Source: Sedimentisphaerales bacterium (lineage in GTDB: Bacteria; Planctomycetota; Phycisphaerae; Sedimentisphaerales; Anaerobacaceae). From it: 34,469 bases of DNA. Where the stretch lies: assembly GCA_016930645.1 (NCBI GenBank), contig JAFGGH010000025.1, positions 1 to 34,469 of the forward strand, in the 5' to 3' direction. The number at the start of each line of letters is the position of its first letter. Position 1 is the first letter of the stretch. The notes beneath the pieces were generated by a model, which was not told where the DNA came from, searched no databases, and was given only the letters and a program-made list of their open reading frames with translations. Shown here in pieces: positions 28,399-31,546 of the stretch. Made by a program: the position numbers and the translations under genes.

Positions 28399-29709
28399 AT
28401 GAACAGGGTAGTGATAACCGGTATCGGGGCGATAAGTCCCCTTGGCAAAACCGCCGCAGATTTGTGGGACGGGCTTTGCGCAGGCAGATGCGGAATTGAC
28501 AGGATACAGGCTTTCGACCCATCTAATTTTCCCTGCCGGATAGCCGGCGAGATTAAGGATTTTAATATCCGCGATTACATCCCGAAATCACTTAGAAAAA
28601 ACACCAAGCTAATGAGCCGTGACATCGAGATTTCAATCGCCGCGGCAAAAGAAGCATTTGAAAACGCCGGTATTGTAACAAAGGCTTCGGACAACGGTGA
28701 AATTAATTTAAATCCTGAACGGACGGCGATTGTATTCGGTGCAGGCCTGATTAGCTGTGATTTGGTCGAACTTGCTCCTGCCGTTGCGGCAGCGATTACC
28801 GATGGTAGATTCGATATGAAAAAATATGGCAAAGACGGGCTGGAGCTGGTAACTCCTTTATGGCTGTTAAAATATCTGCCTAATATGCTGCCCTGTCATG
28901 TAGGGATTATTCACGACATTCAGGGACCGAGCAACACAATTACCTGCGCCGAGGCGGCGGGGCATCTGGCAATAAGCGAAGCGCGTGATATTATCGCGCG
29001 CGGTGATAGTGACATGGCTTTGACAGGCGGCGCAGAGGCAAAGGTCAATCCGATTGTTATGATTCGACAGATGCTGCTGAAACGAACCACAAGCGAATAT
29101 AACGATAAGCCTGCCGAAGCCTGCCGGCCTTTCGATGCAAAAGCGAGCGGCTCGGTCTTCGGCGAAGCGGCAGGGCTGGTTGTTTTAGAGAACATGGAAA
29201 AGGCAAAAGGCCGTTCCGCGACCATTTACGCCGAGATTATCGGAACCGGAGAGAGTAATAATATAAATCCTCAATATGAACACCTTGAAAAAGACGGCAA
29301 AGCTATTCAGATTGCCATAGAAAAAGCTCTTAGTGAAGCCGGTATTAATCCCAGTGACATCGACCTGATAATCCCGCATGGTACAGGCATAGCTGCCGAT
29401 GACTTGGCTGAAAGCAAAGCTATAGAAGCCGCTTTGGGTGATGCCGTAAAAGATATACCGGTATTTCCCACTAAGAGTATGACAAGCAATACCGGCGCAG
29501 CCGCCGGCGCTATTGATGTAATCGCCGCAGTCTGCGCGATGCGTGATGGCAAAATCCCCGCTGCTAAAAATTGTGATAGTATTGCCCAAGGTTGTAATTT
29601 AAATATTGCAACTGAACCGATTGAAAAAGAAATTAAACATGTGCTTTGCTGTAGCTATACTTATGGCGGACAAACAGCAGCTATAATACTAAAAAAGAAT
29701 GACGAATGA
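28399..29709 (+). CDS. Ketosynthase homologue lacking catalytic Cys and His (CLF-like)
   Basis: A FabF-fold protein of 436 residues. In an ungapped alignment with the intact paralogue at 30239, the nucleophilic Cys of the TAC motif corresponds to Glu185 (GPSNTITCAEAAG, 176-188). The first His is kept (PHGTG, H327), Lys359 is kept, and the second His of KSMxGH is Asn364 (KSMTSN). A nearby Cys183 is two residues off. Chain-length factors of type II polyketide systems likewise lose the Cys (to Gln) and form a heterodimer with an active ketosynthase. The last codons lie in a heptad array that flanks the next gene. It is probably a non-condensing partner; the exact role is inferred. Confidence 0.85.
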   Translation: MNRVVITGIGAISPLGKTAADLWDGLCAGRCGIDRIQAFDPSNFPCRIAGEIKDFNIRDYIPKSLRKNTKLMSRDIEISIAAAKEAFENAGIVTKASDNGEINLNPERTAIVFGAGLISCDLVELAPAVAAAITDGRFDMKKYGKDGLELVTPLWLLKYLPNMLPCHVGIIHDIQGPSNTITCAEAAGHLAISEARDIIARGDSDMALTGGAEAKVNPIVMIRQMLLKRTTSEYNDKPAEACRPFDAKASGSVFGEAAGLVVLENMEKAKGRSATIYAEIIGTGESNNINPQYEHLEKDGKAIQIAIEKALSEAGINPSDIDLIIPHGTGIAADDLAESKAIEAALGDAVKDIPVFPTKSMTSNTGAAAGAIDVIAAVCAMRDGKIPAAKNCDSIAQGCNLNIATEPIEKEIKHVLCCSYTYGGQTAAIILKKNDE

Positions 29710-29735
29710 CGAGTAGCGAATTACGAACTACGAAT
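29694..29735. repeat. Left heptad array, overlapping the ketosynthase stop
   Basis: Successive 7-nt units read AAAGAAT, GACGAAT, GACGAGT, AGCGAAT, TACGAAC and TACGAAT. The array covers the last four codons and the stop of the CLF-like gene. The reverse complement of its unit (TCGTNAT) is the unit of the right array at 30152-30221, so the two arrays are inverted repeats around the four-helix-bundle gene. Confidence 0.8.
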
Positions 29736-29769
29736 AGTATTTGTACTGTAATTTAGAAGGGATGATAAG

Positions 29770-30150
29770 GTGGATAAGAAGAAAGATTATGACCTTGAAG
29801 AAAGGCTTATTGATTTTGCTGTTCGAATTATAAGATTGGCCGATTCTCTGCCGAGAACGAGAGCTGGTAATCACGTAGCCGGGCAGATTGTACGTTCGGG
29901 AACAAGCCCTGCACCGAATTATGCTGAGGCAAAAGATGCTGAGTCCAGAAATGATTTTGTGCATAAAATTAAAATTGTTCTTAAAGAGCTGCGCGAAACT
30001 TACGTTTGGCTGCGTATAATTCAGCGAGCAAAGCTCTTGACCAAAGTTGAACGTATCAAAGAACTGACAGATGAATGTAATGAGCTGATTTCTATATTTG
30101 TAAAAAGCGCCAAAACAGCTAAGAATAACAGCGTAAAAAGTAAAAAATAA
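29770..30150 (+). CDS. Four-helix-bundle protein (23S intervening-sequence family)
   Basis: A 126-residue all-helical protein with the TIGR02436/PF05635 pattern: LIDFAVRIIRLADSLPRTRAGNHVAGQIVRSGTSPAPNYAEAKDAES. The FVHKIKIVLKELRETYVWLRI helix follows, then a final helix ending in a Lys-rich tail. Members are found inside 23S rRNA intervening sequences, and relatives (Avd) accompany diversity-generating reverse transcriptases. The start is GTG 29770, with AAGGGA seven nt upstream. It interrupts the two ketosynthase genes and is bracketed by inverted heptad arrays, so it looks like the cargo of a small insertion. No reverse transcriptase or transposase is present. Confidence 0.9.
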   Translation: MDKKKDYDLEERLIDFAVRIIRLADSLPRTRAGNHVAGQIVRSGTSPAPNYAEAKDAESRNDFVHKIKIVLKELRETYVWLRIIQRAKLLTKVERIKELTDECNELISIFVKSAKTAKNNSVKSKK

Positions 30151-30151
30151 G

Positions 30152-30221
30152 TGAATGTTCGTAACTCGTAATTCGGCGTTCGTTATTCGTAATTTATGAT
30201 TGGATATTCGTTATTCATTTT
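30152..30221. repeat. Right heptad array, inverted relative to the left one
   Basis: About ten 7-nt units: TGAATGT, TCGTAAC, TCGTAAT, TCGGCGT, TCGTTAT, TCGTAAT, TTATGAT, TGGATAT, TCGTTAT and TCATTTT. It starts one base after the four-helix-bundle stop codon. A 38-nt stretch aligned by eye with the reverse complement of the left array has about three quarters matching positions, with a 10-nt exact block TCGTAATTCG. Confidence 0.8.
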
Positions 30222-30238: not shown

Positions 30239-31546
30239 ATGCGTAACAGGGTTGTCATAACAGGTCTTGGCTTAGTTTGTCCGATGGGGCATGATGCCGA
30301 GACCGTCTGGAGCGGGATGCTGACCGGTAAAAACGGTTTTAATTACACGACTATCTTCGATGCATCGACTTTTCCATCGCAGTTTTGCGCAGAAGTCAAA
30401 GATTATGATTTAGCAAAGCATGTCAAAAATCCCGGCCTGCATAAAGACAGTAATCGCGGAAGCGGATTTGTTCTTGGCGCCGCTGTCGAGGCGTGCAGGC
30501 AGGCAGGCATCGATATCGAGACGGATAATCCTTCTGACGGTATCGACAGGACAAGGATGGGGATATATCTCGGTGCAGGTGAAGGCTCGGTCGATAATGA
30601 TGTCTTCTTCGATGCCATAGTTAAAGGCTGGGATAATGAAAAGAACCGGATGGACTGGAACAAATGGGCAGATATTGCCTTCGGCAAAATGAGCTCAATG
30701 CGTGAGATGGAGCAGGAGCCGAATATGCCTGCTGCTCATATTGCGATGCTGACCGGTGCCCGTGGGCCGACGCGAAGCTGCCTTACCGCTTGTGCGGCAA
30801 GTACTCAGGCGGCAGGCGAGGCAACGGAAATTATTCGAAAAGGCACCGCCGATGTTATGCTCGCAGGCGGAGCGCATTCGATGATACATCCACTTGGCGT
30901 AACCGGCTTTTGCCGTCTGACTGCGCTATCGACACGCAACGACAGCATCGAAACAGCGTCAAGACCGTTCTCTGCAAGCAGGGACGGTTTTGTCATCGGT
31001 GAAGGCGGAGCGGTTGTAGTACTGGAATCGCTCGAACACGCCAAAAAAAGAGGAGCGAAAATCCTTTGTGAGGTAATCGGCTACGGCAGCAGCTCCGACG
31101 CGTTCAGGGTAACCGATATGCACGAAGAAGCCCGCGGTGCTATCCAGGCCCTCGAAGCTGCACTGAAAGACGCTGGCATTACATACGCCGATGTCGATTA
31201 TATCAGCACACACGGCACCAGCACTGCTGAGAACGATTCTGTCGAGACCAAGGCTATCAAAAGCGTATTCAAAGACAAAGCTAAGAGTACCCCAGCCAGC
31301 TCAATAAAGAGTATGCTGGGTCATCTAATCGGTGCCGCTGGTGCAGCAGAATTGATTACCTGTGTGCTGGCGATTCGTGATAATATAGCCCCGCCGACGA
31401 TGAACCTCAACGATCCCGACCCGGCTCTGGATTTGGACTATGTACCAAACGATCCGAGAAAGACCAGTGTGAATATCGCGGTCAACGAGTCGTTCGGCTT
31501 CGGCGGACAAAATAATGTGGTAATTGTGAAAAGATACGAGCCATGA
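30239..31546 (+). CDS. Beta-ketoacyl-ACP synthase II (FabF-like), active-site complete
   Basis: A 435-residue condensing enzyme that elongates acyl-ACP with malonyl-ACP. The catalytic residues are all present: Cys185 in SCLTACAAST, His325 in STHGTST, Lys357 and His362 in KSMLGH. GFGGQNNVVIVKR forms the closing motif. TAAGG seven nt upstream supports the start. Its stop overlaps the serS start by 4 bp (ATGA), so seryl-tRNA synthetase is coupled to this operon. It is the likely catalytic partner of the defective paralogue at 28399. Confidence 0.94.
   Translation: MRNRVVITGLGLVCPMGHDAETVWSGMLTGKNGFNYTTIFDASTFPSQFCAEVKDYDLAKHVKNPGLHKDSNRGSGFVLGAAVEACRQAGIDIETDNPSDGIDRTRMGIYLGAGEGSVDNDVFFDAIVKGWDNEKNRMDWNKWADIAFGKMSSMREMEQEPNMPAAHIAMLTGARGPTRSCLTACAASTQAAGEATEIIRKGTADVMLAGGAHSMIHPLGVTGFCRLTALSTRNDSIETASRPFSASRDGFVIGEGGAVVVLESLEHAKKRGAKILCEVIGYGSSSDAFRVTDMHEEARGAIQALEAALKDAGITYADVDYISTHGTSTAENDSVETKAIKSVFKDKAKSTPASSIKSMLGHLIGAAGAAELITCVLAIRDNIAPPTMNLNDPDPALDLDYVPNDPRKTSVNIAVNESFGFGGQNNVVIVKRYEP

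Follow-up and report, generated by a model that had tools for sequence, protein, structure and literature searches.

The window gene and its arrays

In the 34,469-base window, by which we mean the whole stretch of Sedimentisphaerales DNA that was analysed, two ketosynthase genes enclose a gene of the PF05635 family (23S rRNA IVP/four helix bundle protein), which is bracketed by two arrays of a 7-nt unit (Table 1). Genes of this family, for which no function is known, are common in environmental bacteria.

Table 1. Coordinates of the PF05635 gene, its arrays and the neighboring genes in the window.
Feature	Positions	Strand	Basis and remarks
KS1, upstream ketosynthase gene	28399..29709	+	PF00109/PF02801; stop codon within the left array; paired with KS2 in relatives
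Left heptad array, about 6 units of type GAATNAC	29697..29738	+	Sequence, Tandem Repeats Finder, lag-7 tract
PF05635 gene	29770..30150	+	126 aa, GTG start
Right heptad array, inverted unit (TCGTNAT on the + strand), about 10 units, degenerate ends	30152..30221	-	Sequence, Tandem Repeats Finder, lag-7 tract
Whole proposed mobile unit, array-gene-array	29697..30221	+	RNA fold; limits from copies at unrelated sites
KS2, downstream ketosynthase gene	30239..31546	+	PF00109/PF02801; orthologs in 58 of 60 relatives searched

The window gene scored 57.9 bits against the Pfam model, for which the curated cut-off is 33.8, and its host operon is of the FabA-like/ACP/ketosynthase type. Read in order, the left array consists of the units GAATGAC, GAATGAC, GAGTAGC, GAATTAC, GAACTAC and GAATAGT. 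The right array, read in a single register, consists of TGAATGT, TCGTAAC, TCGTAAT, TCGGCGT, TCGTTAT, TCGTAAT, TTATGAT, TGGATAT, TCGTTAT and TCATTTT, of which the first and last are degenerate. An earlier reading of this DNA, made without database searches (the sequence-only reading), had described the left array as overlapping the stop codon of the upstream gene and the right array as starting one base after that of the PF05635 gene. Both descriptions are correct: the TGA of KS1 (29707-29709) falls in the second unit of the left array, so that the last KS1 codons (K-N-D-E-stop) are array sequence, and the right array begins one base past the TAA of the PF05635 gene.

Both arrays were detected by Tandem Repeats Finder. 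At lag 7, a score of 24 of 35 matches is attained in the 34,469-base window by these two tracts alone; the best lag-7 tract in 30 shuffles of the window had 22 of 35, and no tract in the window reaches 24 of 35 at any other lag from 5 to 11. The arrays are inverted copies of each other, and serve as terminal inverted repeats whose sequence differs between lineages. The ends of the element had been proposed to form a stem, and in the predicted RNA fold the two arrays do pair into a stem that closes the gene (z -2.80, with 0 of 100 shuffles as stable). PF05635 is the sole gene of the unit, in which no transposase was found. No reverse transcriptase with template and variable repeats is present beside the window gene, and the site, between two ketosynthase genes, is not in an rRNA gene.

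Occupancy of the ketosynthase slot in relatives

The KS1-KS2 pair is conserved among relatives, and the content of the slot between the two genes varies. Five relatives (G003, G004, G007, G012 and G031) have PF05635 orthologs in the slot, with 62-67% identity, and all five orthologs carry inverted heptads of the GAATATC type. The sequence-only reading stood to lose from relatives with the gene but without heptads; it was not refuted on this point, since 5 of the 5 relatives with the gene in the slot have inverted heptads. Many other relatives have short empty spacers between the two ketosynthase genes, which are the empty sites that it had suggested looking for.

Other states were also found. 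The slot of G009 holds the left array and only the first codons of the PF05635 gene, while that of G025 (L017) holds array-like inverted sequence from which the gene is absent. In G019 (L011), a gene pair that we take, from reading the sequence, to be of the VapB/VapC type lies between the same arrays, and about 17 C-terminal PF05635 codons are left beside the pair. From these varied states across relatives we conclude that the copy in the window was inserted long ago, and that decay has followed in some lineages. The slot element is old, inherited and still intact rather than the product of a fresh jump, with orthologs in five other genera and relics in two more.

Limits of the element and empty sites

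An all-against-all DNA comparison of PF05635 loci revealed many pairs that are 75-89% identical, with homology confined to array-gene-array and stopping at the outer array edges. Two G004 copies located on separate contigs, for example, share a 446-bp stretch with 89% identity that runs from 49 bp ahead of the start of the gene's profile match to 51 bp past the stop. The mobile unit array-gene-array is about 450-575 bp long. Between such copies dN/dS is 0.02-0.30, corresponding to purifying selection on PF05635.

Filled and empty sites were compared in a related genus, in which five PF05635 genes are present in G053 and none in its congeners G045 and G049. The near flanks of two G053 sites are 81-93% identical; at these sites G045 and G049 both lack the gene and contain a short stretch of unrelated intergenic DNA. 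At one of these two sites the array provides the upstream gene (presumably leuC) with its stop codon, as it does in the window. No target duplication was seen at the two empty/filled sites, nor had any been visible in the window to the sequence-only reading; because the intergenic DNA of the relatives is not alignable, the exact insertion junction or a target duplication cannot be given. The edge-limited homology, together with the empty sites in congeners, indicates that array-gene-array behaves as a mobile unit without a transposase, which had been one of the earlier proposals for this locus. The best explanation, reached partly by inference, is that the window feature is probably one copy of a widespread transposase-less mobile unit, in which PF05635 lies between inverted arrays of a unit that is nearly always 7 nt long.

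Insertion is biased in orientation. PF05635 is sense to both neighbors in 84 cases and antisense to both in 5 in the family set described below, and in 41 and 4 cases, respectively, in the all-phyla set. This bias would be expected either of a unit without its own promoter or of strand-specific insertion, e.g. at the transcript level.

Occurrence of array-flanked PF05635 genes

PF05635 genes were found in 35 of 40 genomes of the window's bacterial family, with up to 14 copies per genome. The family set comprised 123 unique PF05635 genes, and a tract with 24 of 35 matches or better was counted as period 7. Such tracts occur in 37% of upstream and 22% of downstream flanks, compared with 3% of control 3' flanks (n = 229, other genes of the same loci). 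None of the other lags from 4 to 13 exceeds 4% in the family set, lag 14 being a multiple of 7. When each gene's upstream flank was compared with the reverse complement of its own downstream flank, the median score was 18, as against 10 across loci, while comparison of the family-set flanks in direct orientation showed no excess. A direct-repeat or integron-like arrangement was ruled out, because the arrays match inverted and not direct.

A second set of 80 loci was taken from all phyla in the GTDB collection, including Bacteroidota, Acidobacteriota, Omnitrophota, Patescibacteria, Clostridia, Nitrospirota, Geobacter, an archaeal MAG and others. In this set period 7 was present in 28%/27% of flanks, compared with 7%/4% for other genes of the same loci. 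An inverted match between the two flanks was present in 62%, compared with 2.6% across loci and 7% for the 85 other genes scored at these loci. The phenomenon spans many phyla, each protein lineage having its own heptad. Plasmids of Nostoc, Calothrix and other cyanobacteria contain PF05635 genes bracketed by inverted arrays of GGGAGTA, GGGAACA and similar units.

On three cyanobacterial plasmids (L352, L353 and L354), PF05635 units lie within CRISPR-cas operons, in the interval from cas6 to cas4 or from cas10 to cmr3. Units in cas operons may explain an earlier report of IVP genes in cas loci.

Arrays are not present at every copy. Both arrays were found at only 95 of 233 scored PF05635 genes at a moderate threshold, and some copies (e.g. 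L349) have no recognizable array. Lengths vary and units are degenerate; arrays have a median of about 5 units, a biased figure given that those with fewer than about 4 units escape detection. No conserved rRNA motif was found in any fetched PF05635 locus, and a location in rRNA was ruled out for these units, with no rRNA motif near any copy.

The heptad follows the protein lineage

Clades of the PF05635 protein tree share a unit, even at unrelated sites. The unit of the window gene's clade is GAATATC, and those of other clades include AAAATGC, AGTTTTG, GATGCTC, GAGGACA, GTTCATT, CGTATTG, TAGTATT and TCGTGGT. The relation between unit and protein was analyzed with omission of all pairs of loci that have any homologous neighbor gene, and a unit was scored as shared at a similarity over 0.55. 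Among these non-syntenic pairs, the unit is shared by 73% at a protein distance below 0.3, by 56% at 0.3-0.6, and by about 3% at large distance. The Mantel value for unit similarity against protein distance was -0.162, the most extreme of 500 permutations being -0.096. Determination of the unit by the host genome was ruled out, as several units are present in one genome, each following the protein lineage. Taken together, comparison of the copies shows gene and arrays travelling as one to unrelated sites, with each protein lineage having its own heptad.

The two arrays of one locus have a similarity of 0.590, versus 0.403 for arrays of other loci and 0.380 in the wrong orientation. In 77 of 95 loci (p 1e-12), left and right arrays correspond unit by unit in order, beyond their common consensus. 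Selection for a paired stem could produce such a match, but so could inverted copying, with no stem being selected.

The degenerate units and variable array lengths are features that might also be expected of chance or ordinary microsatellites, i.e. of simple-sequence noise beside a resident gene. The controls, however, show specificity to lag 7, to the inverted orientation, to the flanks of PF05635 and to the protein lineage, leaving this explanation with hardly any likelihood.

Solo arrays in the host genome

The window genome (2.18 Mb, 103 contigs, 78% complete) contains eight PF05635 genes. By eye, short-unit arrays are present beside most of the eight, with a different unit each time, for example GGTTAAT on the left and ATTAACN on the right, or AAGGATN on the left and NATCCTT on the right. 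The window's own unit also forms arrays at about 40 other places in this genome, mostly without a PF05635 gene. A pattern search of the genome with this unit gave 100 matches, compared with 5 in the reversed control, and the window genome has more matches to its own unit than any of 39 relatives. The 16 of these arrays that were read are mostly intergenic and without PF05635. Heptads at positions unrelated to PF05635 genes had been named as evidence against the sequence-only reading, and in part they exist: with about 40 arrays mostly lacking the gene, arrays evidently occur alone as well as around PF05635. These solo arrays may be relics, non-autonomous copies or regulatory sites.

Most of the solo ACGAATN arrays that were read (e.g. 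among L314-L341) look sense to an adjoining gene, and one (L318) lies between genes that we take to be groEL and groES. G049, which is without PF05635, keeps several single AGTTATC arrays (L278-L285), most of them close behind gene ends; AGTTATC is the unit of an element in its congener G053.

The solo arrays bear on two alternative explanations. The first is a host regulatory system, in which PF05635 would be an RNA- or DNA-binding regulator, the heptads its operator or mRNA sites, the solo arrays its regulon and its own arrays autoregulatory, with ordinary transfer and duplication accounting for the distribution. Cognate units, the many same-unit solo arrays in the genome, more numerous than in any of the 39 relatives, and purifying selection on PF05635 are consistent with this explanation. 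Heptad repeats in Geobacter and Beggiatoaceae have also been read as regulatory sites by earlier authors (PMC2700814, PMC4679880). We nevertheless consider it unlikely that regulation alone accounts for the locus, because there are up to 14 copies per genome with different units, the distribution is patchy within a genus (0 versus 5 copies), homology is limited exactly to array-gene-array, and arms with inverted symmetry are seen more typically in mobile units. The regulatory and mobile-unit readings are not exclusive.

The second is that dispersed repeats are moved by a resident transposase (e.g. a REP-associated Y1) or by recombination between arrays, with PF05635, like other small genes, as passive cargo. 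The existence of solo arrays is consistent with this, as is the G019 slot, where the presumed VapB/VapC-type pair lies between the same arrays and only a C-terminal relic of PF05635 remains; Y1_Tnp and PF05635 counts also correlate, although weakly (rho 0.39). Passive cargo, however, leaves unexplained why the unit tracks the PF05635 lineage and not the host genome. The Y1_Tnp genes of the same genome have GC-rich REP-type palindromes in their flanks and not heptads, and PF05635 is under purifying selection, which together make passive carriage rather improbable.

Predicted structure of the window protein

The AlphaFold model of the window protein is a helical bundle (pLDDT 93), with predicted helices at residues 3-26, 31-55, 60-86 and 93-124. 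The nearest PDB entries are 2RLD (TM 0.8-0.9) and 2GSC, followed by Avd (4DWL, 8UB7), and the predicted model has the four-helix-bundle fold of the 2RLD/2GSC type. The 2RLD and 2GSC entries contain five chains each, and the 2GSC paper, according to its title as cited in PMC3936711, describes five four-helix bundles. From these chain numbers and this title we infer that PF05635 may assemble as a pentamer. An array of about 5 units would suit one heptad per subunit, which we keep as a hint.

Avd works with RNA. As a component of diversity-generating retroelements, it has the same fold as PF05635 by structure comparison (4DWL, 8UB7), but it belongs to a system of reverse transcriptase and template/variable repeats, and reverse transcriptase is absent from many PF05635 carriers. 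In a retroelement reading, a resident reverse transcriptase would copy the unit via RNA, and PF05635 would play the part of Avd. The fold similarity, which includes the Avd of a DGR ribonucleoprotein (8UB7), is consistent with this, as are the sense orientation of the copies and the RNA stem. Against it, no RVT_1 was found in the window genome (78% complete) or in nearly complete genomes with 5-13 copies (G015, G031, G003, G029, G030 and G061), and RVT_1 and PF05635 counts are uncorrelated (rho -0.06), so that we regard a retroelement as very unlikely. G015, for example, is 98% complete and has 13 PF05635 copies but no RVT_1. As G015, G031, G030 and G061 are without RVT_1, a resident reverse transcriptase is not needed. 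A reverse transcriptase acting in trans was rejected on the basis of the RVT_1-free, PF05635-rich genomes and the absent correlation.

Comparison with known systems

The 23S rRNA intervening sequence (IVS) of Coxiella burnetii contains an S23p ORF, 28-bp terminal inverted repeats and tandem heptamers (GACAGAT) just upstream of the ORF, and is excised by RNase III (PMC4990558). It shares with the window unit the PF05635 gene, the complementary stem-forming ends and the heptamers. The resemblance to 23S rRNA intervening sequences suggested by the sequence-only reading extends to the same parts, heptads included. Whereas the IVS is located in 23S rRNA, from which RNase III removes it, the present units are found between protein genes, reach high copy numbers in single genomes and have, at both ends, heptads that are specific to the lineage. 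The window unit is not an IVS by the defining location, yet it has IVS anatomy. Insertions that code for IVPs are reported at several sites in the rRNA genes of CPR bacteria (PMC11270868); they carry the same domain as the window gene but are confined to rRNA genes, and no heptads are described in the part of that report available.

Dispersed heptanucleotide repeats are reported from Xanthomonas (GGGAATC) and Nostoc (GGGGA(C/T)T) (PMC4692102), Geobacter (PMC2700814) and Beggiatoaceae (TAACTGA; PMC4679880). Like the units here, these repeats and the cyanobacterial STRR are tandem 7-nt arrays scattered between genes. The Nostoc repeat resembles the GGGAGTA and GGGAACA units around the Nostoc plasmid PF05635 genes. 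In the parts available, these papers describe the repeats without a link to PF05635 (PMC4692102, PMC2700814, PMC4679880), and it is a lead that they might be solo relics of such units.

REP/RAYT systems resemble the units in that a single gene is flanked by short inverted repeats and further repeats occur alone. They differ in that RAYT encodes an enzyme and REPs are GC-rich palindromes, whereas the flanks of PF05635 are heptad arrays. The window element is not a REP/RAYT, as it does not combine a Y1 transposase gene with REP palindromes. RAYT transposases as the mover were rejected on account of their own flanks, which are REP palindromes. In the window genome, RAYT-like Y1_Tnp genes with GC-rich REP-type palindromes (L356-L362) form an ordinary REP system.

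Proposed mechanism

We propose that PF05635 would form a ring of five subunits, in which every subunit would recognize a single heptad from the gene's own array, either as RNA or as one strand of DNA. This would be somewhat like TRAP, a ring protein that binds repeated RNA triplets. The shared principle is that of equal subunits each reading one tandem unit; TRAP differs from PF05635 in fold, stoichiometry and unit, and is used here only as an analogy. In the folded host transcript, the arrays would pair and close off the gene with a stem. With the protein bound, this stem would be what is processed or moved, by enzymes supplied in trans. The IVS would be the special case in which the unit has landed in rRNA and is excised by RNase III.

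More tentatively, and with a little less than an even chance of being right, these units may represent a new class of mobile element without its own enzyme, consisting of a non-catalytic ring protein and inverted arrays of a cognate 7-nt word. Protein and word would co-evolve, giving each lineage a private word, the 23S rRNA IVS would be a special case, and the heptanucleotide repeats of cyanobacteria, Xanthomonas and others would be solo relics. No description of the array-gene-array architecture was found in the open-access literature searched, with subscription papers and preprints mostly outside the search, which does not prove that none exists; a search for phage records gave only Avd. 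If the heptads are cognate sites, three puzzles would be joined, namely the role of the IVS protein, the spread of IVS-like units and the origin of dispersed heptanucleotide repeats, and the many lineages would offer a natural set of protein-word pairs.

A second array-flanked family

GxxExxY genes (PF13366; L068-L075, L286-L313) likewise lie between inverted arrays of a short unit, here with a period of about 9-10, e.g. CACAGATTA-type units. This is a second family with its own array period. There are eight GxxExxY genes in the window genome, and the copy numbers of GxxExxY and PF05635 correlate with a rho of 0.63.
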